Shown here: in pieces, positions 6,266 through 19,155 of the stretch
How positions within the stretch are numbered: position 1 is the first letter of the stretch
Layout of the letters: every line of letters starts with the position of its first letter
Assembly (NCBI RefSeq): GCF_022870905.1
Contig: NZ_CP091510.1
Coordinates: 2,046,001 to 2,110,000, forward strand
From: Neisseria arctica
GTDB taxonomy: Bacteria > Pseudomonadota > Gammaproteobacteria > Burkholderiales > Neisseriaceae
Direction: 5' to 3'
Length of the DNA stretch: 64,000 bases
The notes under the pieces: generated by a model
Seen by the model: only the letters and a program-made list of their open reading frames with translations
Databases searched by the model: none
What the model was told of the DNA's origin: nothing
Position numbers and translations under genes: made by a program

Positions 6266-7708
6266 CTATAATAAAAATATTGTAGCCAATCCTAAGAAGA
6301 TTAAGAAACCGCCTGAGTCGGTTACCGCCGTAATCAACACCGAGCTGCCTAATGCCGGATCCCTGCCAAATTTATCCATCAATACGGGAATCAACACGCC
6401 AACCGTAGCTGCCAACAACAAGTTAAGCGTCATCGCCGATACCATTACAAAACCGATACCCGGGCTGTCATACAGCAACCACGCCACCACGCCCATTACA
6501 CTTCCCCAAATTAAGCCGTTTACTAATGCCACCCCGACTTCTTTTCTCAACAACCGCCCTGCGCGCATACCTGAAAGCTGTCCCATCGCCATAGCGCGAA
6601 CAATCATGGTAATGGTTTGGTTACCTGAATTACCACCGATACCGGCTACAATCGGCATCAGTGCAGCTAAGGCAACAATTTTCGAAATCGACCCTTCAAA
6701 TGCGCCGATCACTCTACTGGCTACAAAGGCAGTACACAAATTAATTGCCAGCCACATCCAGCGGTTGCGCACCGAATCAAGCACGGGCGCGAACAAGTCT
6801 TCTTCTTCCTGCAAACCGGCCATGTTTAACATATCGGCTTCGGTTTCTTCGCGGATAACGTCTACCATTTCATCAATGGTGATGCGGCCGATTAGTTTTT
6901 TGTTTTCATCTACCACCGGCGCGGTAATCAAGTCGTAACGCTCAAATGCCTGTGCGGCTTCTTCAACATCATCTTCAGGGCGAAAACGTACTACCTCGGT
7001 AGCCATAACGTTTTCAACCAATTCTTCCGGATCAGCCACCAATAATTTACGAATCGGCAATACACCTTGCAAAACATCATGATCGTCGACTACGAAAATT
7101 TTATCAGTATGATCGGGTAAACTTTCAAACCGGCGCAGATAACGCAATACCACTTCGCACGTTACATCAGCGCGGATGCTGACCAATTCGAAATCCATTA
7201 ATGCGCCGACTTGGTCATCTTCATACGACATCGCTGCCTGAACTTGCGCCCGCTCTTCTTCGTCACGGGTTTTCAAGGCTTCGTAAACAACCTGGTTGGG
7301 CAGATCATCGGCCAACTCAGCCAGCTCATCGGCATCCAAATCTTCAACCGCCGCTAACAACTCTTCCTTATCCATGGTTTCGATAAGGGTTTCGCGCACG
7401 GCATCGGATACTTCCAACAATACTTCGCCATCTTCTTCGGGAGCGGCCAAGTGCCACACCAGCATCCGCTCTTTTTGCGGCAGTGATTCAAGCACCGTAG
7501 CGACGTCGGCCGGATGCAGCTCGTGCATCAACTCTATCAGCTCTACCAAAGCCTGATTCATAGCCTCATCCGGCAGCGGCAGGTTTTCTTCTATCTGGCT
7601 GTAAACGGGCAATAAAGATTCCGCCAGCTCATGGATACGGGCAATATCCAATGGCAAGCGTTCGAGATCGATTTCTGATACAGGTGTGTTTTGCGGCTCG
7701 ATGCTCAT
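6266..7708 (-). CDS. mgtE: Magnesium transporter MgtE
   Basis: Inner-membrane Mg2+ channel gated by intracellular magnesium. The 480 residues divide into an N-terminal superhelical domain (about 1-135; DLDADELAELADDLPN), two CBS domains (about 135-260; IFVVDDHDVLQGVLPI and LITAPVVDENKKLIGRI), a connecting helix, and five membrane helices (about 290-480). The conserved pore segment PIVAGIGGNSGNQT is present. I place the start at 7708: GGGAGGAG lies seven bases ahead of it, and an in-frame start six codons upstream lacks such a site. The gene has an unusually long, structured leader whose last hairpin covers the Shine-Dalgarno and touches the ATG (see the leader entry). Confidence 0.96.
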   Translation of the reverse strand: MSIEPQNTPVSEIDLERLPLDIARIHELAESLLPVYSQIEENLPLPDEAMNQALVELIELMHELHPADVATVLESLPQKERMLVWHLAAPEEDGEVLLEVSDAVRETLIETMDKEELLAAVEDLDADELAELADDLPNQVVYEALKTRDEEERAQVQAAMSYEDDQVGALMDFELVSIRADVTCEVVLRYLRRFESLPDHTDKIFVVDDHDVLQGVLPIRKLLVADPEELVENVMATEVVRFRPEDDVEEAAQAFERYDLITAPVVDENKKLIGRITIDEMVDVIREETEADMLNMAGLQEEEDLFAPVLDSVRNRWMWLAINLCTAFVASRVIGAFEGSISKIVALAALMPIVAGIGGNSGNQTITMIVRAMAMGQLSGMRAGRLLRKEVGVALVNGLIWGSVMGVVAWLLYDSPGIGFVMVSAMTLNLLLAATVGVLIPVLMDKFGRDPALGSSVLITAVTDSGGFLIFLGLATIFLL

Positions 7709-7880
7709 AAATACTCCTCCCGCCAACGCGCTGCGGGGGCGTATTTAGGCGGGGATTTACATGGTTGTTCTGTTAGGTATAGGTAATAAACCAGGAAGGT
7801 CCATAGTGAATGCCTGCACCATTATCGCAGGTCTTGGTAATGGAAACGGCGCATATTCTACACCTTTCAGACGGCCTAAC
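7708..7880 (-). promoter_or_regulatory. Structured mgtE leader RNA with RBS-sequestering hairpin
   Basis: Read as minus-strand RNA. An outer helix GUUAGG (7880-7875) can pair with CCUAAC (7777-7772). Inside it, UCCAU pairs with AUGGA and a CCUGC/GCAGG stem-loop forms. Downstream lies a hairpin with 7-bp arms UAAAUAC (7747-7741) and GUAUUUA (7714-7708), extended by a 2-bp step and a CCCGC/GCGGG stem (7737-7733 with 7723-7719). This buries the GGGAGGAG Shine-Dalgarno and the first base of the mgtE ATG. The layout, an aptamer-like part followed by translation control, is that of a riboswitch or Mg2+-sensing leader. It does not match the M-box pattern as I know it. A weak promoter (TTGAAA, RC of 7918-7923; TATAAC, RC of 7897-7902; spacer only 15) lies just upstream. 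Confidence 0.5.
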
Positions 7881-8102: not shown

Positions 8103-8137
8103 AAAAAAGCCTTCCGAAAATGCGGAAGGCTTTTTTT
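8103..8137. terminator. Intrinsic terminator of the adhesin/OmpA-lipoprotein unit
   Basis: GCCTTCCG (8109-8116) and CGGAAGGC (8123-8130) form an 8-bp GC-rich stem with A6 on the left and T7 on the right. It works in both directions and lies 18 bases past the stop of the leftward lipoprotein gene. Confidence 0.85.
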
Positions 8138-8154: not shown

Positions 8155-8973
8155 TCAATAACGCCCGGAACCATCTACTTCAACCTCTACTCGGCGGTTA
8201 GGTTGCAGACAGCTGACCAATTCTGTACGACCCAAAGCATTACTGCAATTCTCTACCGGACGGCGTTCTCCTTCACCTTGGGCGCTCATAATTCCGGCCG
8301 GTACACCACGCTGGATCAGATAGCGGCGTACGGTTTCAGCACGGCGTTCCGACAAAATTTGATTATAGCCTGCATCACCCAAACGATCGGTATGCCCTGT
8401 AATACGTATGGCTTTCAAACGGTCAAACTGTTTGATTTTTTCCGCAAGCTCATCCAATCGCGCTTTCCCTTCAGCATTCATATCACCGGCACCGCTTTTA
8501 TCGAATACAAATAAAGCGTCGGCAGACAAACTGAAGCGCTCGGTATTTTGATTGCCGACACTAGGAGGACAAACGGCATCCACCGGATCTACGGCTTTCC
8601 AGAAAAAACTGCGGGCAAATTTTTTGTTGTCATAAATTACTTTAAACTGACAAGTCGTTACATTGTCAGTACCCTGACCGGGCGTATGGAAATGGAACAA
8701 ATAATCCCACTCCCGCACATCAAACATACCTTCGTCATAGTGCGGACGCCCTAATAGTTTGTATAGCTGGTCTTTAGTCATACCTGCTTTAACGTTGGAT
8801 AACTCATCTGTAGTAGGGAACGTACCGCGGTCTTTATTGAAAGTGACTGAGTATGGTTTGGGGAACACCGGCTCATCAGTAGTACCATCCGGCTTCACAT
8901 CACTTTTGGTGGCACATGCCGCCAACATGGCAAGGGTTAACAATACCGCTGTTTTTTTCATCATTTGTTTCAT
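8155..8973 (-). CDS. TpgA-like SmpA/OmpA lipoprotein, adhesin partner
   Basis: A 272-residue lipoprotein. The lipobox LAAC lipidates Cys20. About residues 45-135 form a SmpA/OmlA (BamE-like) domain (VKAGMTKDQLYKLLGRPHYD). About 155-268 form an OmpA C-terminal peptidoglycan-binding domain (ITGHTDRLGDAGYNQILSER, with the Asp and Arg that bind diaminopimelate). The same domain pair is known in TpgA of Acinetobacter, encoded just downstream of the trimeric autotransporter AtaA and needed for its surface assembly. Here the gene follows the giant adhesin by 66 bases on the same strand, so a like role is a strong inference. A facing DUS hairpin in the 66-bp gap may reduce read-through. The gene is closed by a strong terminator. 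Confidence 0.85.
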   Translation of the reverse strand: MKQMMKKTAVLLTLAMLAACATKSDVKPDGTTDEPVFPKPYSVTFNKDRGTFPTTDELSNVKAGMTKDQLYKLLGRPHYDEGMFDVREWDYLFHFHTPGQGTDNVTTCQFKVIYDNKKFARSFFWKAVDPVDAVCPPSVGNQNTERFSLSADALFVFDKSGAGDMNAEGKARLDELAEKIKQFDRLKAIRITGHTDRLGDAGYNQILSERRAETVRRYLIQRGVPAGIMSAQGEGERRPVENCSNALGRTELVSCLQPNRRVEVEVDGSGRY

Positions 8974-9039: not shown

Positions 9040-12000
9040 TTACCACTGATAGCCTACACCGGCGGTTGCGCCGTAATGACCGCGGGAGTTGCCTGAAGCC
9101 GTACCTTTAATGATCCAGTTACCGCCGTCGGAAATGCTTGAGAAACCGATTGCATAACCGCTCTCACCACGATAGGTACTGCCTGCCACCGCCATCATGC
9201 TCTTACCCGGCAAATAAGCTTGCGGCAAACCGGCAACAGCCATTGCAGAAGCCGTACCGGCTTTAGCATCGGTATCTACATCGTCAATACGCTTGGCCAA
9301 GGCATTACCTACACCCAGCAACTGATTTACATTGACCGCATCGGTACCGTTTACCCCGGGAGCCACATTGGTAATAGTGTTATTGCCGTTATCCAATCCG
9401 TTGGCTGTCAGCTTCACGGTATCATTGTTACCACCGCTCACGCTCACGCCGTCATTGTTTACGGTAGTGTTACCGGCTTTTAATTCATTGGCGGATACAC
9501 TGTTAAGGCCGCTCAAATCCTTCGCCAGTTTCACATTTAAAGTACCTTGGCCGTCCGAAACCACACCAATATTGTTATCGGTAAGGCTGCCTGTCGCCCC
9601 GCCTTTCACATTCAGGGTATCACCCAATTTACGGTTAATGCTGCTGCCGCTGTCACCTGCAAAGTTCAAACCTTTGTTCAACTCTGCGGTATTGGCCGCA
9701 ACATTTTGGTTAGTCGCATATAACTGGCTACCATTTACGGCATCTTTGCTTGTTGCGCTCAGATCACCGGCCGCAACATTGCTAACTTTGGTATCCGCCG
9801 CGTCAATACCTGCTTTGGTAACACTCGGGCCATTGGCAATGTTTAAACCATTGTTATTAACTGTTGCGTCGCCGGCTTTCAAGCTGTCAACATTCAAATC
9901 TTTAGCGGTTGCCACTTCATAAGTGGTACTACCGTCCGCATTTGTCGTTGGCGTCACTTCAATGTTATTTCCGGCTGTTACCTTAGTTGTCGAAGCTGCT
10001 TGGGCAGCCTTCAACTGGCTTACATTCACTGCATCAGTATCATTTACACCTGCGGCAACATTGGTAATGGTATTACCGCCGTTATTCAAGCCTTTATCGG
10101 TTACGCTAACATCACCTACTTTCAAACCGTCTTTACTTAACGCCACATTATCGCCTACGCTGACACCGTCTTGATTCAAAACGGTATCACCGGCAGTAAC
10201 GCTATCCACCTTCAAATCTTTAGCGGTTGAAACGGTATAAGTCGTACTTCCATCCGCATTGGTAGCTGGTTGTACTTCAACATTGTCACCGGCAACCACT
10301 TTAGTGGTAGAAGCTGCTTGTGCGGCTTTCAGCTGGCTTACATTAACCGCATCAGTGTCATCCGTACCGGCAGCAATGTTGCTAATCTTATTACCGCCGT
10401 TATTCAAGCCTTGATCCGTGAGGCTGACGGCTTGGCCGTTAGCAGGTGTAATCGTAACGCCGTTAGCTGCTGTCGTAGTCGTATTGCCCGCAGCATCACT
10501 TACGGTTGTACCCGCACCATTGACAACAGTTTTACCGCCCGTGGCATTGTTAAATGTTGCACTGTTTAAATCAGCCAAATCTTTCGCTAATTTAACAGTC
10601 AACTTGTCGGTACCGTCTGCCACAACACCAATATTGTTATCGCTCAAGCTACCCGTTGCCCCGCCCACTACATTCACTTTGCTACCCAAAGTACGCGTAA
10701 ATTCCGTTCCCGTATCTCCGGCAAAAGTCAGCGGGCTATTGGCTTTGTCATTAGCTGTTTTGATCGCATCATTGATGTTATCAGCACCCGTACCGCCGAT
10801 ATCGGTAATAGTGACATTGCCTTTATCATTAGCAGCATTAACGCCTAAAACTTTTACGAAATTGTTTTGAACCTCATTGAGTTGTTCTTCAGTTGCTGCC
10901 CGTCCTGCCGTAGCAAAATCAGCTCCACCCAAAGTCGTATTCGATAAGCCGGCTACAGTATTGGTTGCTTTATCCAACACAACATTGCCCACCGTTACCT
11001 TGTCAAATGCTACTTCTTTAGCAGTTGCTACGGTATAGATGGTTTGTCCATCAGCGCCGATTTCACTGGTCACTTCGATATTGTCGCCTTGAACTACTTC
11101 AGTTTTCGCTGCTGAGGCAGCTTTCTTAACATCACCGACATTAGCGGCGTTGGTTTCAACGTCACCACCGCTGGCTACATTAATGATTTGGTTGCCGCCG
11201 TTATCCAAACCGGATGCAGTCAGGCTTACCGGAGTACCTTGTGCACCATTACTGATGGTAACACCATTATCATTTACTTTAGTATTACCGGCAGTTAAGC
11301 TGCCATCAGAACCCAAATTAATGTCTTTGGCCAATTTAACTGTCAACTTATCAGCCCCATTCGCAACAACACCGATATTATTGTCGGTCAAACTTGCCTC
11401 ATTGGTGATTCCGCCAACAACATTAACCGTTTCACCCAATTCACGAGACACATTAGCACCCGTATCTCCGGCAAAAGTCAGCGGGCTATTGGCTTTGTCA
11501 TTAGCTGCTTTGATGGCATCGTTGATGTTATTCGCACCCGTACCGCCAATATCTGTCATAGTGACATTGCCTTTATCATTAGCAGCATTGCCGCCCAAAA
11601 TAGTTGCTAAATTATTTTGAGTAGTATTTAGCTGTTCTTCAGTTGCTGCTCGTCCTTCCGTAGCAAAATCAGCTCCGCCTAAAGTCGTATTCGATAAGCC
11701 GGCTACAGTATTGGTCGTTTTATCCAACACAACATTGCCCACCGTTACCTTGTCAAATGCCACTTCTTTAGCAGTTGCTACGGTATAGATGGTTTGTCCA
11801 TCAGAACCGGTTTTACTGGTCACTTCGATATTGTCGCCTTGAACTACTTCGGTTTTCGCTGCCGCTGCGGCTTTCTTAACATCACCGACATTAGCGGCGT
11901 TGGTTTCAACGTCACCACCGCTGGCTACATTAGTGATTTGGTTACCGCCGTTATCCAAACCGGACGAAGTCAGGCTAACGGGATTACCAGCCGTTGGGGT

Positions 12001-15000
12001 AATATTAATGCCATCACCGCTCACATTGGTTACATTGCCTGCCGCATCGGTAAATTGCGCTGAAGTCAAACCGGTTAATTCTTTAGCCAGTTTTACATCC
12101 AAAGTACCACTGCCGTTCGACACCACACCAATATTGTTATCAGCTAACTTAGCAGTATCCGCACCACCTTTAACCGTAACGGTAGAACCCAATTTTTGTA
12201 CTGAGTTGGAGCCACTGTCACCCGCAAAGGTAAGCGGTTGGTTTACTGCTGTATTTAAGCCATCAAGCGCATCTCCTACATTGTTATAAACAGTAGTTGC
12301 ACCATTTGCCGGATTACCGGAAGTTAGCGTGTAAGTAGGAGCAGTAACATTACCCGAACCATCCACTGTACTACCACCACCAAGATATTGTGCTGTGTTA
12401 GCTGCAGTTTGGTACAACTGGCTGCCGTTTACCGCATCTGTAGAAGACGCACTAACCACACCACTGGTAACATTGGTAATTTTTTGATTAGCCGCATCAA
12501 TACCGCCTTTAGTCACGCTCGGACCGCCTGTGATGGTTAGACCATTCGTATCCAAAACGCTATCACCCGTAGTGACACTATCTACGTTCAGTGCTTTAGC
12601 CAAATCGTAAGTTACATCGTTACTATCTGCGGTTTTACTAATCACGATATTACCGTCTGCATTCTTCATATCAACGGTTTCACCGGGATTCACCACGCTA
12701 CCATTACTACCCGATGCAGTGAGTGTAAAGCCGGTGTTGCTGATAGCATTTGCCAAACTACCTGCTGTTACCAAACCATCGGGGTTGGTTGGGGCCGTAA
12801 TCTTACCGTCGGCACCAACTACCGGTTCAGCTGTTACTACGCCCACCGTATAAGTTTTGCTTCCATCCTGATTATCAGTAGGTGTAACAGTAATTTGATT
12901 GCTATTGCCACTCTCTACCTTACCAGAAGCCGCATTTTGCGCAGCCTGCAATTGGCTGAAGTTCACCGCATCACCTGCTTCAGTACCAGCTGCAATGTTA
13001 GTAATCTTATTACCACCGTTATCCAAACCTGTACTGGTTAGGCTCACCGTTTTACCGCCTTGAGGTGTAATCGTGAGTCCGTTGGCAGTTGTGGCCGTTG
13101 AGTTACCCGATGCATCAGTAACAGTCGTACCTGCAGCATTCACTACAGTCTGACTACCGTCTGCATTAGTAAAGGTCGCACTATTCAGACCTACCAAGTC
13201 TTTAGCCAGCTTGGCAGTCAATGTGCTGCTGCCATCCGCCACAATACCGATATTACCGTCGGATAATTTTGCAGTATCAGTGACCCCACCAACAACATTA
13301 ATGGTTTCACCCAATTTTCGTGTTACCGTATTACCAGTATCTCCGGCAAATGTCAGGGGATTATTTGCTACAGAAGCCAATTGGTCTTCAGTTGCAGCTC
13401 TGCCGCTAGTAAAACTATTTGGATCAAATGTAGACGTATTTGACAAACCATCAATAATGCCTGTCGCACCATTAATGGTAATAGGCGAGCCTGTATTCTG
13501 GCTACCAACCATAATGCTATTGGCTAACCCAAAAGTGATATTGTTATCATTTTTTGTCAAAACAATATTGCCGTCTTGATTATTCAAATCTACTATTCCG
13601 CCCGGAGCAACATTACTGCTGTTATTCCCGTTTGCCGTCAGATTCCAACCTTTATTGGCCGTTTCTGAAACAGCATACAGCTGACTGCCGTTCACAGCAT
13701 CAGTGCTATTCTCAGCTACCTCACCAGCCTGAACATTGGTAATTTTATTTCCACCATTATTCAAGCCATTTTGCGTTAGGCTCACCGGATTAGTTCCATT
13801 AGTGATCTGAATACCATCGTTATTCAATAATGTATTACCTGCTGTAACACTACCGGTAGCGCCAAGATTAATGTCTTTCGCTAATTTCACTGTTAATTTA
13901 TCAGTGCCGTCAGCTACTACGCCGATATTATTTTCCGTTAACTTAGTTTCATCAGAAGCGCCGCCGACCACTTTTACAGTTTCACCCAGTTTACGTTGAA
14001 CATCTGTACCAGTATCACCTGAGAATGTTAAAGGTGTGAACGCTTGCTTTCCTGCTGCATTAATAGCATCACTGACATTGGTATAAGATTGGCCGTTAAC
14101 ATTGATTGCCGTACCATCTAAAACATTTCCACCAGCCGTAACGCTATCAACAGTGATCTTTTTAGCTAACGAGAAATCTATGTTGTTATCAGATACAGTG
14201 GTAACAATATTCTTATCTGCACTTGCATAAGTAACGGTATCACCAAGCTGTACATTATCTGCCATACCATTATCAGCAGCGATATTGAAACCTTTGGCAA
14301 TATTTTGATTAGTTGTATAAAGTTGGCCGGCATTTACCGCATCCGTACCACCTTCCACCAAATTACCCGCAGCAAGATTAGTAATGGTATTACCACCATT
14401 ATTTAAACCGCTTTGGGTAAGAGTAACAGGGTTTGCCGCATTACCATTTGTGATAGTAATGCCGTCTGAATTCATAGTGGTATTACCAGTAGTCACATTT
14501 TGTGCAGTAACACTATTTACCGAGATATCATCCTTCAAAGCAATGGCGATATTACTACCTGAAGCTGTAGTAGTAATGTTTTTATCACCCGTTACACTAA
14601 TAGTGCTGCCAAGCAATTGTTCAGTAGTAGTTGTACCGCTATCACCTGTAAAGGTTAAACCTTTAGTCGCTACCGTAGTATTGGCATCAACACCTTTCTG
14701 AATATCAGCTTTTGTATCCGATGAAAGATCAATAGCATAATCAGTTACATTGCTGCTATCTTTAGCACCCGGAGTTACGGTTAACGCTGTTGAAGCTGTG
14801 CTGACTTTTGCACCATCAGCATTAACGGTATATACGGTTTGGCCTTTATCACCAATAGTACTACTTACCTCTGCAATATTAGTACCTGCTTTTACCTCGG
14901 TTTTGGCTGCTGCAGCTGCTTGATTAATAGCCGTGGCAGTATCACCTGCAGTTACAAAAGCATTTGGAGTTCCAGGAGTTTCAACAACACCATCGGTTAC

Positions 15001-18000
15001 CGTTAGAGAGGTTGTAGGAATACTGAGATCATAAGTTGTCGCTAATCCATTAGTGCTTGCACTTACATTTATAGATTTATCAGCAGAAGTCACAACTGTT
15101 GCCGCATTTTTCACATCAGCAATATTAGCCGCATTCGTTTCCGTAGTTCCGCCACTACCGACATTAGTAATCGCCAAATTACCGGCATTAATACCTGTGC
15201 TGGTAATACTTGGACCATTACTAACAGCAATGCCATCTGATGTAATAGATGTATTTCCAACCGTAACCGTATCCGCTGATAAGCTTGTTACTGCAATAGT
15301 ATCGTTCAACTTCACCGAAATAGTATTACCATCAGCTGATGTTGTAATATTTTTACTGTCACCTTTTACAGCAACTGTATTACCGAGCAACTGTGTATCA
15401 GTCGTACCACTATCGCCTGTAAAAGTTAACCCTTTTGTAGTAACCGCGGTATTAGCTTCCACACCTTTTTGGATATCCGCTTTAGTGGTATCTGCTAAAT
15501 CAATAACATAATCGGTGGTAACAGCCTTATTGCCATCAGTAGAACTCTGCTCGGTTTTAGTTAAAGCAGTACCCACACTAACTGTTGTTTTATCTGCGCT
15601 AACAGTATATTGAGCATTATTACCTTGCTCTTCCAAAGCAACGTGAGTATTACTACCTTGTACAACAGTGGTTGTCTTTTCCGTAGCCGTAGCAGCCTTA
15701 TTAATAGCAGCCGCTACTTGATCTGCAGTGGCAAAACTATCGCCTGATGTATTGGCAGTTACATTGCCGGCTGTATCAGTTGTTAAATCAGACTGTTTAA
15801 CAGAATAAGAAATATTTCCATTACTTCCAGATGCGGTTGTACCTGAGCCATTAACAAAATTAATTGTATTGTTAGTTTGATCAATTGTTTGTGCAAACGC
15901 ACCATTAACATTTGCCGTCCAGCTTTGTAGTGCCGTATCAGCCTTAGCTAATGACTGCACAGCAGCATCACTTAAATCAACAGTGTAAGTTGTGTCATTA
16001 GTTGTATTATCAGTAGCGTTAGAAACAACAAGCTTTCCACTATTTCCTTGAGCAACAACCGTACCTTCCGCATTCACAGTGTAAATTGCCTGTCCATTAC
16101 CACCAGTACTTTTCTCAATGCTAGCAATATTGGTACCTTTGGTAACTTCGGTTTTTGCTGCTTTAATAGCTTCATCTACTGTATTTTTTCCAGTATCACC
16201 AATATTAGTCATGGTAATTGAACCATTTGAACCAACAGCAGCAGTGCCTCCTAGAACTGTTTTAACAGAATCTGCAACATTGCCAATAACATTATTTGTC
16301 GCATATAGCTGGCTACCATTAATAGCATCAGTTGAGGAGGAAGAAATTTGTCCGGCAGCAACATTTTTGATTTGACGCTCTAACCCTACCTTACCAACAG
16401 AAACTATTTGTCCATCCGTTAACGTACCACTCCCTGCAAAAGTACCATACGTTATATTATTCACAGTCGCTTGCGTTGTTGGTACATAAGGGGCTGCGCC
16501 ACTAGAAGACGCACCTAATATGACGGAATTACTTAAAGTAGCATCAGCAACACCACTTCCTAACACCATAATATTCTTGCCACTAACCGTATTACCATTA
16601 CCCAAAGTAACATTATCACTTCCGGAAATATTATTCCCAGAGCCCATAACCATATTACCGGTAGCATTGGTATTCACAGTATTACTGTTACCAACAATAC
16701 GGCTTTCATTACCTTGCAAAGTATTATTGTTACCAAAAACACCTGCATTATTCGCACTAATCGTACCGTTATTATTACCCACGCTATAAGTACCGGCACC
16801 TGTAATATTAGTCGGATCACCAATGGCACCTGAACCTTCGCCGCTTACCACATTACCCGTGCCAATAGAAATCGTCTTATCAGCCGTGGCCTGCGCACCT
16901 TCGCCAATAGCAATAGCACTCACTCCATCTGTTTTTGCATTTAAGCCGATGGCAACTGCATTATTCTTTTTAGAAACCGCACTATCACCGATATTCACAG
17001 TATGTGATGCGACAATACGAGTAACACTACTACCTGAACCCGCATTCACACCGATATTGACATTCTTATCACCATCCTGATAAGCACCGGCAAAATATCC
17101 ACCGTTATAATTGAAATTACCATGCTGACCAACACCAGAAAACGATCCTAAATGGGTATTACTGCTACCTTGCTGCCAACGACCAGCGCGCAAACCTACT
17201 GCTGTATTATTTTCCCCCCAACTGGCATTGGCACTACTGGCAGAAGCATCACCCTGCAAGGTATCCATACCGATACCGATATTTTGACCTCTTAAGAAAG
17301 GGGAACCAATATTAGCAGTTTGGCTATCTTGACGAATATACTGACCCGCACGCTGCCCCAAATAAATACTGTTACTGCCTTCAGAGCCTTGACCAGCAGC
17401 CTGCCCCATTAAAATATTGGTATACCCTTTCACACCGGTACCAGCTCCACGCCCCACAGCAATCGTGTCATTACCCAGTGCCTTTGCTTGCTCCCCGATT
17501 GCAATCGCATACTGGCCTACCGTTACTGCAGTCGTATCCGTAGCAAGCGGGGTATTCATATTTGCTGCTTGGTTTGCTCCGGCAGTAGCACCAGATCCAA
17601 TTGCTACAGAATTAGCTGCTCCGGCTTCTGTAGACGTACTCGGACCAAGTGCTACTGATTCAGCACCTTGCGCTCCATCATTATCCCTGTTTCCCAAAAC
17701 AGTTGACTTCACACTCGTATAGTTTTGCGATGCAGCACGCAATTGTGCAACGTTTACAGCATCAGTATCTCTCGCCCCAGCTGCTACGCCTGTAATTTGG
17801 CGTGTAACCTTGGCGGTGCCTGTCGTAATACCGGTTGCTTCGTCAAACGCCGTTCCCGTATCATCACCGATTGCCAAAGCAGCGTGTGTTGACTTCCATG
17901 TAGATATCGTTTTATCCACACTTGAGCTACTTGCTTTACCGTTTGGCACATAGCCTGTAGAACCAAGAGGGCGTGTAGTTAAAGCATCACTACCCAAAGC

Positions 18001-19155
18001 AACACTCTTATCACGTGTCGCTTGCGCACCGGAACCAATCGCTACCGACTCACTGGATGATGCCAGCGTCTTAACATTGGTTGCCGATGCTCCGCCGATT
18101 GCAATAGAGCGAGCACCTGTTACATCAACATCTATACCTACAGCAACCGAATTAGTTGCAATCGATGACGTGCTTGAGTTCACGCCAATCACAACCGACT
18201 TATCACCTTGTGAAGTAGCACTACCACCAACAGCCAAACTATTTGCAGCACTAGCAGTTGAATTAGAACCAATCGCCAATGCGTTAGTATTCGATGCCAA
18301 AGATTTATAACCCAGCGCTGTAGACTGAGAACCAACAGCTGTCGCCAGCGCACCAACAGCCGTACCTTCAATAATAGTAGTTGAGGGTGTCCAAGCATAC
18401 AACGCGATGCCAGCTTCCGTGGAAGTTACAGCACCTAAAGTACCTCCACCCGCAGTAGCCCCTACACCGATAGCTGTAGAACCTTTTGATAAAGCTTGCG
18501 CATGGGGGGCAATTGCAGTCGAACCATCACCACCGCTGAATGTTTTTCGATAGGGAGCGCTGACTGAAGTATTGTATCCAACAATGGGATATGTAGCACT
18601 ACTATAACCAGTTGTTCCTGAATCATCGCCACCAATAGACACCGCCCCCGCTCCGATCGCACGCGTATCATTACCAATCGCAATAGATTGCCCTATTTCT
18701 GCTCTTGCTCTGGAACCTACAGCTACCGCTTGAGCCCCCTTGGCATACGAATACCCACCCAATGCAGTAGCAGAACTTGTCACACTATTAATGCCTTCAG
18801 CATATGAAGAGAAGCCAAATGCAGCATCTGCCGCATTTTTTGCTGTTGCTTTGGCACCAACGGCAACCGAGTTGCTTCCTGACGCTGTTGCATCCTGCCC
18901 GCAGGCAAGGGCATCTGTGCCCGTAGCGGCTTGGTTTGTTGCTCCTACACAAGTAGCCACTGCTGCTGCCACCGGATTAGGCATAAATAGTGCTCCTGCC
19001 ACTAAAGCAGATACAGCAACACCATAAACATATGCTGAATGCTTGGCGCCTTCACCGGAAGATGTCGTGCTCTTACCATGTGCTTTAGTAATTTCAGAGG
19101 CCACTACCCATGCGTTACGGGCATGGCTCCAAATAATTCTATAAATTGCGTTCAT
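9040..19155 (-). CDS. Giant trimeric autotransporter adhesin (YadA/Hia type)
   Basis: A type Vc secreted surface fibre of 3371 residues. The N-terminus is an extended signal peptide (MNAIYRIIWSHARNAWVVAS, then the hydrophobic core to about residue 65). Two left-handed YadA-type head regions follow (about 85-440 and 490-915), built of repeats such as NSVAVG and SIAIG and ended by necks DTDAVNVAQL and STDAINGSQLYA. The second head has an Asn-rich part near 790-866. The stalk (about 950-3280) carries eight copies of a LTFAGDTG...LGETVNVVGG module, mostly followed by DNNIGVVADG, with many DAVNVSQL/DAVNGSQL necks. The last ~90 residues are the YadA anchor (TASAMAVAGLPQAYLPGKSM, ending GATAGVGYQW), which forms the 12-strand barrel as a trimer. 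Part of the stalk is a 750-bp tandem duplication. It is far longer than NadA or NhhA. The likely job is adhesion, autoaggregation or biofilm; the receptor is unknown. Confidence 0.95.
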   Translation of the reverse strand: MNAIYRIIWSHARNAWVVASEITKAHGKSTTSSGEGAKHSAYVYGVAVSALVAGALFMPNPVAAAVATCVGATNQAATGTDALACGQDATASGSNSVAVGAKATAKNAADAAFGFSSYAEGINSVTSSATALGGYSYAKGAQAVAVGSRARAEIGQSIAIGNDTRAIGAGAVSIGGDDSGTTGYSSATYPIVGYNTSVSAPYRKTFSGGDGSTAIAPHAQALSKGSTAIGVGATAGGGTLGAVTSTEAGIALYAWTPSTTIIEGTAVGALATAVGSQSTALGYKSLASNTNALAIGSNSTASAANSLAVGGSATSQGDKSVVIGVNSSTSSIATNSVAVGIDVDVTGARSIAIGGASATNVKTLASSSESVAIGSGAQATRDKSVALGSDALTTRPLGSTGYVPNGKASSSSVDKTISTWKSTHAALAIGDDTGTAFDEATGITTGTAKVTRQITGVAAGARDTDAVNVAQLRAASQNYTSVKSTVLGNRDNDGAQGAESVALGPSTSTEAGAANSVAIGSGATAGANQAANMNTPLATDTTAVTVGQYAIAIGEQAKALGNDTIAVGRGAGTGVKGYTNILMGQAAGQGSEGSNSIYLGQRAGQYIRQDSQTANIGSPFLRGQNIGIGMDTLQGDASASSANASWGENNTAVGLRAGRWQQGSSNTHLGSFSGVGQHGNFNYNGGYFAGAYQDGDKNVNIGVNAGSGSSVTRIVASHTVNIGDSAVSKKNNAVAIGLNAKTDGVSAIAIGEGAQATADKTISIGTGNVVSGEGSGAIGDPTNITGAGTYSVGNNNGTISANNAGVFGNNNTLQGNESRIVGNSNTVNTNATGNMVMGSGNNISGSDNVTLGNGNTVSGKNIMVLGSGVADATLSNSVILGASSSGAAPYVPTTQATVNNITYGTFAGSGTLTDGQIVSVGKVGLERQIKNVAAGQISSSSTDAINGSQLYATNNVIGNVADSVKTVLGGTAAVGSNGSITMTNIGDTGKNTVDEAIKAAKTEVTKGTNIASIEKSTGGNGQAIYTVNAEGTVVAQGNSGKLVVSNATDNTTNDTTYTVDLSDAAVQSLAKADTALQSWTANVNGAFAQTIDQTNNTINFVNGSGTTASGSNGNISYSVKQSDLTTDTAGNVTANTSGDSFATADQVAAAINKAATATEKTTTVVQGSNTHVALEEQGNNAQYTVSADKTTVSVGTALTKTEQSSTDGNKAVTTDYVIDLADTTKADIQKGVEANTAVTTKGLTFTGDSGTTDTQLLGNTVAVKGDSKNITTSADGNTISVKLNDTIAVTSLSADTVTVGNTSITSDGIAVSNGPSITSTGINAGNLAITNVGSGGTTETNAANIADVKNAATVVTSADKSINVSASTNGLATTYDLSIPTTSLTVTDGVVETPGTPNAFVTAGDTATAINQAAAAAKTEVKAGTNIAEVSSTIGDKGQTVYTVNADGAKVSTASTALTVTPGAKDSSNVTDYAIDLSSDTKADIQKGVDANTTVATKGLTFTGDSGTTTTEQLLGSTISVTGDKNITTTASGSNIAIALKDDISVNSVTAQNVTTGNTTMNSDGITITNGNAANPVTLTQSGLNNGGNTITNLAAGNLVEGGTDAVNAGQLYTTNQNIAKGFNIAADNGMADNVQLGDTVTYASADKNIVTTVSDNNIDFSLAKKITVDSVTAGGNVLDGTAINVNGQSYTNVSDAINAAGKQAFTPLTFSGDTGTDVQRKLGETVKVVGGASDETKLTENNIGVVADGTDKLTVKLAKDINLGATGSVTAGNTLLNNDGIQITNGTNPVSLTQNGLNNGGNKITNVQAGEVAENSTDAVNGSQLYAVSETANKGWNLTANGNNSSNVAPGGIVDLNNQDGNIVLTKNDNNITFGLANSIMVGSQNTGSPITINGATGIIDGLSNTSTFDPNSFTSGRAATEDQLASVANNPLTFAGDTGNTVTRKLGETINVVGGVTDTAKLSDGNIGIVADGSSTLTAKLAKDLVGLNSATFTNADGSQTVVNAAGTTVTDASGNSTATTANGLTITPQGGKTVSLTSTGLDNGGNKITNIAAGTEAGDAVNFSQLQAAQNAASGKVESGNSNQITVTPTDNQDGSKTYTVGVVTAEPVVGADGKITAPTNPDGLVTAGSLANAISNTGFTLTASGSNGSVVNPGETVDMKNADGNIVISKTADSNDVTYDLAKALNVDSVTTGDSVLDTNGLTITGGPSVTKGGIDAANQKITNVTSGVVSASSTDAVNGSQLYQTAANTAQYLGGGSTVDGSGNVTAPTYTLTSGNPANGATTVYNNVGDALDGLNTAVNQPLTFAGDSGSNSVQKLGSTVTVKGGADTAKLADNNIGVVSNGSGTLDVKLAKELTGLTSAQFTDAAGNVTNVSGDGINITPTAGNPVSLTSSGLDNGGNQITNVASGGDVETNAANVGDVKKAAAAAKTEVVQGDNIEVTSKTGSDGQTIYTVATAKEVAFDKVTVGNVVLDKTTNTVAGLSNTTLGGADFATEGRAATEEQLNTTQNNLATILGGNAANDKGNVTMTDIGGTGANNINDAIKAANDKANSPLTFAGDTGANVSRELGETVNVVGGITNEASLTDNNIGVVANGADKLTVKLAKDINLGSDGSLTAGNTKVNDNGVTISNGAQGTPVSLTASGLDNGGNQIINVASGGDVETNAANVGDVKKAASAAKTEVVQGDNIEVTSEIGADGQTIYTVATAKEVAFDKVTVGNVVLDKATNTVAGLSNTTLGGADFATAGRAATEEQLNEVQNNFVKVLGVNAANDKGNVTITDIGGTGADNINDAIKTANDKANSPLTFAGDTGTEFTRTLGSKVNVVGGATGSLSDNNIGVVADGTDKLTVKLAKDLADLNSATFNNATGGKTVVNGAGTTVSDAAGNTTTTAANGVTITPANGQAVSLTDQGLNNGGNKISNIAAGTDDTDAVNVSQLKAAQAASTTKVVAGDNVEVQPATNADGSTTYTVSTAKDLKVDSVTAGDTVLNQDGVSVGDNVALSKDGLKVGDVSVTDKGLNNGGNTITNVAAGVNDTDAVNVSQLKAAQAASTTKVTAGNNIEVTPTTNADGSTTYEVATAKDLNVDSLKAGDATVNNNGLNIANGPSVTKAGIDAADTKVSNVAAGDLSATSKDAVNGSQLYATNQNVAANTAELNKGLNFAGDSGSSINRKLGDTLNVKGGATGSLTDNNIGVVSDGQGTLNVKLAKDLSGLNSVSANELKAGNTTVNNDGVSVSGGNNDTVKLTANGLDNGNNTITNVAPGVNGTDAVNVNQLLGVGNALAKRIDDVDTDAKAGTASAMAVAGLPQAYLPGKSMMAVAGSTYRGESGYAIGFSSISDGGNWIIKGTASGNSRGHYGATAGVGYQW
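10711..11985 (-). repeat. 750-bp tandem duplication in the adhesin stalk
   Basis: The stretch 10711-11235 recurs at 11461-11985 with few changes, offset by exactly 750 bases (250 codons), so the frame is kept. It encodes the LTFAGDTG, GRAATEEQL and TNTVAGLSNTTLGGADF segments. This is a recent in-frame duplication of a stalk module. Confidence 0.85.

Follow-up and report, generated by a model that had tools for sequence, protein, structure and literature searches.

A conserved upstream reading frame and two competing helices at the mgtE start in Neisseria: a candidate leader-peptide attenuator of a magnesium channel gene

The mgtE locus and the proposed aptamer

When the leader of a magnesium channel gene buries the gene's own ribosome-binding site, the question arises of what kind of RNA that leader is, and of what would open it. 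Such a leader lies ahead of mgtE in Neisseria arctica, within a window of 64,000 nucleotides of contig NZ_CP091510.1 that is the whole stretch of DNA analysed here. A sequence-only reading of the window had described it as riboswitch-like, with an aptamer-sized region closed by a long-range helix of GUUAGG with CCUAAC. Part of this description holds, in that mgtE possesses a conserved, structured and uncatalogued leader; the aptamer does not, because its closing helix draws on promoter DNA. The surroundings of the leader are as follows.

6266..7708, minus strand: mgtE coding sequence, 480 amino acids, an Mg2+ channel (open reading frame and homologs)
7813..7831, minus strand: small hairpin H1, directly before the start of an upstream open reading frame (uORF; weak fold)
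7855..7860, minus strand: putative -10 box TAGAAT (sequence and conservation)
7866..7877, minus strand: DNA uptake sequence AGGCCGTCTGAA, part of the promoter, separated by 5 nt from the -10 box downstream of it and overlapping the GUUAGG arm (sequence)

The mgtE gene is transcribed leftwards, with its ATG at 7708, and is found in all 46 Neisseria genomes examined; the close relatives of the MgtE protein are those of Neisseria species, including N. gonorrhoeae DSM 9188. Read along the minus strand from 7880, the region consists of the uptake sequence, the -10 box, H1, the uORF and a hairpin at the Shine-Dalgarno (SD) sequence, in that order. In 33 of 35 unique Neisseria leaders, all but L028 and L030, a TAnAAT-type box precedes the uORF AUG by 47-56 nt; by rule of thumb transcription is predicted to start near 7848. 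A scan for TTGACA/TATAAT promoters returned two sites, both on the opposite strand. The sequence AGGCCGTCTGAA is a dialect of the DNA uptake sequence (DUS). H1 folds in most leaders, weakly (median z -1.36, n=35). DNA uptake sequences have been reported in gonococcal promoters, 34 of them anchored around -35; the -10 consensus of these promoters is TAHAAT, and a classical -35 box is missing from most (PMC4176332). Compared with the gonococcal pattern, the uptake sequence here is closer to the -10 box, in which a G stands at the H position.

In the case of the proposed closing helix, the letters of both arms are present (7880-7875 and 7777-7772). The 5' arm is promoter DNA, however, and neither hexamer was found in the three near relatives checked; an aptamer closed by this helix is rejected on these grounds. 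Perfect 6-nt complementary pairs number 6 in the region as against 3.1 in shuffles, and the 186-nt fold has a z of -1.81, which becomes -0.61 for 7850-7704, from which the promoter part is omitted. The reading had also judged that the leader is not an M-box, and here it was right: at gathering cut-offs the window has no match to any Rfam family, known thermometer families included, and a relaxed search of 601 nt gave 25 sub-threshold matches with no M-box among them, the best being mir-3347, whose 26.2 bits fall short of its cut-off of 124. The M-box (ykoK leader) also controls Mg2+ transporter genes at the RNA level, but it is a family of Mg2+-binding aptamers, to which the Neisseria leader has no match. 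The feature that would identify a riboswitch, a conserved aptamer closed upstream of an expression platform, was not found in this leader. What is conserved between promoter and hairpin is a short reading frame, in its start, its frame, its first residues and the position of its stop, and this suits a leader peptide that senses translation better than an RNA that binds a ligand. Among the articles listed by a search of the open-access literature (PMC) there was none on this leader.

Two further observations concern the neighbourhood. A terminator-like hairpin at 8103-8136, to which the majority of the weak matches from the relaxed Rfam search fall, separates mgtE from a gene at 8155-8973 that is OmpA-like by eye, and 9040-19155 on the minus strand is an open reading frame of 3371 amino acids that by eye resembles a trimeric autotransporter adhesin.

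A conserved upstream reading frame and two competing helices

The reading frame that occupies the leader had been overlooked by the earlier reader.

7757..7804, minus strand: uORF MDLPGLLPIPNRTTM, 15 codons and a stop, between promoter and hairpin

All 46 Neisseria genomes carry it, always with the start ATG-GA(C/T/A) and always 85-108 nt before the mgtE ATG, and in 45 of the 46 it is 12-20 codons long. N. weixii L021, whose leader is identical in L074, has a uORF of 32 codons with a stop that overlaps the mgtE start (ATGA); this frame is out of register with the usual stop, and the ATGA overlap would couple both reading frames directly. Among the 40 unique regions, codon 2 encodes D in 37 and E in 3 (GAC, GAT and GAA), counts that must be read with the ATGGA search pattern in mind, as it presupposes D or E at this codon; in an alignment of 32 leaders, however, these five bases do not vary. 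Codon 4 is P in 35 regions, codon 5 is S in 31 and G in 6, and codon 6 is S in 33. A 19-base motif built on the uORF has a single copy in each of 19 of the 46 genomes, always just upstream of mgtE, while the reversed motif gave no match in the 46; the window's own copy deviates from the motif. The uORF regions are rich in C (0.314) and poor in G (0.114). Two features looked for as signs of leader-peptide control, namely a conserved uORF before a Mg2+ transporter gene and acidic and proline codons at the start of the peptide, are present, and the uORF may be translated.

The uORF ends just ahead of a set of arms that surround the mgtE start.

7748..7753, minus strand: arm a1, CCCGCC, the 5' side of helix A, nt 4-9 after the uORF stop (covaries with a2)
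7741..7747, minus strand: arm b1, UAAAUAC, the 5' side of helix B (covaries with b2)
7733..7739, minus strand: arm c1, CCCCCGC, pairing with a2 and the SD region inside form B (folds)
7719..7724, minus strand: arm a2, GGCGGG, common to forms A and B (folds and covariation)
7714..7718, minus strand: mgtE Shine-Dalgarno core AGGAG, with a2 and b2 on either side of it in the alignment (sequence)
7708..7714, minus strand: arm b2, GUAUUUA, whose last base is the A that opens the mgtE ATG (fold and covariation)

The hairpin that was said to bury the SD and the first base of the ATG is borne out. The stretch 7747-7700 (minus strand) folds with a 14-bp stem at -18.1 kcal/mol (z -2.58; 3 of 200 shuffles equally stable), and in this fold the A that begins the mgtE ATG (A7708) is paired with U7747. 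The equivalent stretch forms a hairpin in all 33 unique Neisseria sequences that remained after prior removal of L021 and L052, with a median of 13 bp, -17.6 kcal/mol and a median z of -3.36 against mononucleotide shuffles.

A competing helix shares an arm with this hairpin. Helix A consists of a1:a2, and a1 follows the uORF stop at a median distance of 4 nt; helix B consists of b1:b2 with c1:a2 inside it, and a median of 12 nt separates the stop from b1. The distance from the stop to the closing stem likewise has a median of 12 nt, both in Neisseria and in those other genera in which a closing stem was found, distances below 10 nt being excluded by the mask. The second CCCCGCC noticed in the sequence-only reading does pair with GGCGGG (7753-7748 with 7724-7719), and the pairing covaries, but it does not create the second closed form envisaged there, as helix A is predicted to open the SD.

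The covariation relied on comes from an unfitted MAFFT alignment of 32 distinct leaders, a test with arms chosen for pairing being biased. In this alignment 95.5% of the cells of A and B are paired, as against 35.5-54.8% in controls with slid partners, and double changes are found at 6 of 11 pairs (16 cells); none of 500 shuffles reached the paired or double-change values. The number of pair types in A and B was not above that of shuffles (217/500), and RNAalifold, run on the same alignment, returned A plus two doubtful helices and did not return B. One b1:b2 pair flips between A-U and G-C with both sides in agreement in 46 of 46 genomes, which amounts to 3 changes on a quick MgtE tree with 6 partial rows; three independent pairs are too few for significance (p 0.25).

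The stop of the uORF is tied to the same arms. In 37 of 40 unique regions the first in-frame stop falls at most 9 nt before a1, and never earlier, with a1 positions fitted by pairing; the other two frames have such a stop in 1 of 40 and 3 of 40. The length from ATG to a1 nonetheless varies modulo 3, with 26, 8 and 6 regions in the three classes. The exceptions are L021, which has no stop there, L050, where the stop overlaps the fitted a1 by one base, and L052, where the frame runs into the hairpin. Taken as sequence features, the uORF with its frame and stop position and helices A and B are well supported.

Folding predictions place the two helices close together in energy, with a median gap of 0.49 kcal/mol over 46 leaders, and in the window B is favoured by a predicted 3.7 kcal/mol. 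The form that dominates in the free RNA varies with the span folded, from A 0.61 and B 0.21 in whole transcripts to A 0.24 and B 0.64 in the hairpin. Enforcing A gives a median predicted accessibility from SD to AUG of 0.61, and enforcing B one of 0.26 (46 leaders). As far as folding predictions go, the leader has two exclusive structures, of which one would block expression.

A candidate attenuator and its rivals

How might a reading frame and a bistable hairpin act together? A proposal to which we would give even odds is that the leader is a translational attenuator of mgtE, controlled by its leader peptide and responsive to Mg2+. A ribosome would translate the 12-20 codons of the uORF, which ends a few nucleotides before the bistable RNA element. 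With the uORF stop unoccupied, a1 would pair with a2 (form A) and the mgtE SD and AUG would be exposed; a ribosome on the stop would cover a1 and leave b1 free, so that c1 and b1:b2 would take a2 and the SD (form B) and mgtE would be closed. The probable sensor is the acidic and proline-containing start of the peptide, which may destabilise the ribosome at low Mg2+ as in MgtL. At low Mg2+ the ribosome would leave before the stop, form A would result and MgtE would be made, and at ample Mg2+ the uORF would be completed and mgtE repressed. If drop-off were early, A could form once a2 had been transcribed, ahead of the SD and b2. Magnesium is a plausible signal, and by analogy the proposed sign would be the one expected on physiological grounds. 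Leaders of the Snodgrassella type that do without the uORF are mostly open at the start region, which counts in favour of the attenuator; counting against it are the single acidic residue in the Neisseria peptide start, weaker than the EPDP of MgtL, and the broken stop geometry of L021 and L052.

The effect of a ribosome on the stop can be approximated by masking. With the stop codon in the A site, the edge of the ribosome lies by toeprint about 9-10 nt past the stop. Masking the hairpin to stop+9 is predicted to raise the median proportion of B from 0.64 to 0.99 (46 leaders, hairpin alone), yet median accessibility is 0.36 in the free hairpin and 0.35 in the masked one, despite the rise in B. 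In the whole leader, placing a ribosome at the stop moves the median predicted accessibility from 0.34 to 0.27, with a fall in 26 of 44 leaders and a rise in 9. With the mask extended to stop+11, B stays at 0.99, and at +13 and +14 accessibility climbs to 0.54 and 0.61; a separate test at stop+12 gave no closing. The predicted change in accessibility is small, and in these models the sign of the response hinges on about 3 nt of footprint.

One rival is a coupling of opposite sign, in which ribosomes at the uORF stop melt the hairpin and turn mgtE on, the uORF either activating mgtE or supplying it steadily with ribosomes. We consider it unlikely, though the least unlikely of the rivals. A ribosome may reach or unwind as far as the positions at which masking (stop+13 or more) opens the SD in the folds, the overlap of the N. 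weixii uORF with the mgtE start is a coupling layout, and the stop of L052 lies inside the hairpin. However, B persists when the mask ends where toeprints would place the ribosome edge, the median distance from stop to closing stem is 12 nt, and if the peptide start does destabilise ribosomes, MgtE would fall when Mg2+ is scarce.

The base composition of the uORF regions, C-rich and G-poor, is also what would be expected of Rho-dependent attenuation of the kind described for mgtA and corA, in which translation would mask or uncover a Rho site in the uORF region and the SD hairpin would be secondary. MgtL and CorL are reported to act through Rho (PMC11282234, PMC11552253). Such a mechanism leaves unexplained the covarying helices centred on the mgtE SD and AUG, and we regard it as improbable.

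Slightly less probable again is a plain SD-occluding hairpin that keeps mgtE translation low until an sRNA, a protein or heat opens it, the uORF being non-regulatory. The hairpin is strong by itself, and sRNAs and thermosensors that act at start sites are known in Neisseria; against it stand the conserved frame, peptide start and stop position, the competing helix A and the lack of a match to any Rfam thermometer family. The idea of direct metal sensing, whereby A and B together make a Mg2+-stabilised pseudoknot around the SD and the uORF is incidental, has very little chance of being correct, for although a1:a2 and b1:b2 both covary and are formed from different arms, arranged as in a pseudoknot, B cannot complete its inner part while A occupies a2, other genera keep the closing hairpin with A missing from most minimum-energy folds, and the conserved uORF and stop position are left unexplained.

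Comparable systems and leaders of other genera

The attenuator proposed here has several relatives among known leaders. In E. coli, full translation of the MgtL uORF at ample Mg2+ turns mgtA off, and at low Mg2+ ribosomes leave at EPDP and mgtA is on (PMC11282234). MgtL of E. coli and Salmonella mgtA shares with the Neisseria leader a short uORF ahead of a Mg2+ transporter gene, early acidic and proline codons and two exclusive folds, but its output is Rho-dependent termination, whereas here it would be an SD-burying hairpin, and both the transporter family and the peptide are different. In Salmonella MgtQ, between mgtC and mgtB, the 8-codon uORF carries Asp2 and Glu5, which impede translation and relieve a stem that occludes the mgtB ribosome-binding site, so that alternative stems and translational control are common to both (PMC8092293). 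It differs in lying between operon genes, with the ribosome acting on an early stem, while the Neisseria element is a 5' leader with its uORF stop aligned with the switch. CorL resembles the Neisseria element in that a Mg2+ channel gene has a uORF in its leader, that the leader has two exclusive folds and that uORF translation runs inverse to channel expression, and differs in being Rho-dependent and in its UUG start in E. coli; an SD hairpin of the present layout is not described in the portions of that report drawn on here (PMC11552253). Going by its published description, the nearest element is the mgtE motif SRC-65-1 of Thioalkalivibrio, a structured mgtE leader of narrow distribution in which a large stem holds SD and AUG at its base (PMC11109978). 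That motif is filed as a riboswitch candidate and limited to another genus, and the description on which the comparison is based makes no mention of a uORF (PMC11109978).

The Neisseria leader looks like an uncatalogued form of the leader-peptide control of Mg2+ transporters of the MgtL/MgtQ type. A bolder supposition, which is possible and which we would hold only tentatively, is that an MgtL-like Mg2+ sensor, a leader peptide whose start makes ribosomes drop off when Mg2+ is low, arose independently in Neisseria and related beta-proteobacteria and was tied to a bistable SD hairpin and not to Rho, with the switching arm placed exactly under a ribosome that terminates on the uORF stop. If true, Mg2+ sensing through the stability of the translating ribosome would not be peculiar to enterics, having been reached again in beta-proteobacteria, and the gonococcus would be among the carriers, with a translational output on MgtE. 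It would also supply a search rule, namely a short reading frame with an acidic and proline start and a stop about 12 nt before an SD hairpin, and would be a warning that leaders with SD hairpins filed as riboswitch candidates can be uORFs. The gene concerned was counted among the essential transporters in a meningococcal screen (PMC4981724).

Beyond Neisseria the distribution is uneven. An MgtE match is present in 82 of 83 genomes of the family, and leaders of other genera were obtained from 33 of 37 genomes, the remainder comprising one with no match, two with distant matches only and one fragment. By hand tally, 17 of these 33 leaders have the uORF; the 16 that lack it come from 12 of 14 Snodgrassella genomes (code g34) and 4 genomes of code g28. 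The peptide typically starts M-[D/E]-x-[P/D]-S, as in MEPPSPF of Stenoxybacter, MDEPPSY of Conchiformibius, METDSC and MDADSC of ruminant Neisseriaceae, and MDLPS of Crenobacter, Gulbenkiania, Craterilacuibacter, Laribacter and bacterium JH1-16. Its divergence is that of a peptide, with exchange of D and E, insertions of whole codons (MDDVP, MDEPPS, MDDLPS) and D in place of P (METDS, MDTDS); the serine codon, AGT in most Neisseria, is TCG or TCA in L102 and L152. In other families of the order the uORF was found in 1 of 20 regions (L167, MDLPSKR), with start placement uncertain in several. A badly designed order-wide pattern search that required GGAGG matched 4 of 399 genomes and missed the window's own.

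Of 22 leaders of other genera, 5 (L099, L102, L152, L155, L165) show helix A in their minimum-energy fold, so the mechanism elsewhere may differ. Among Snodgrassella-type leaders without the uORF, the start region is predicted to be open in 6 of the 8 folded (accessibility 0.51-0.85) and stands at 0.33 and 0.37 in the other two; comparison medians are 0.38 for the 46 Neisseria leaders (range 0.13-0.63) and 0.33 for 21 other leaders with the uORF (0.13-0.78).

Some minor observations may be added. The uORF start is missing in the Snodgrassella-type L093, L095-L098, L105, L131, L139-L141, L143-L149, L151 and L153, and by eye leaders of this type keep an H1-like hairpin and a -10-like box. Three entries titled Cardiobacterium (L085, L088, L091) have an mgtE 79% identical to that of the window and no uORF, and it is possible that their mgtE was transferred horizontally. 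In L165, finally, the sequence AGGCTGCCTGAA follows directly on the uORF stop and spans the a1/b1 region; it resembles a dialect of the DNA uptake sequence, and in that leader an uptake sequence may form part of the switch.
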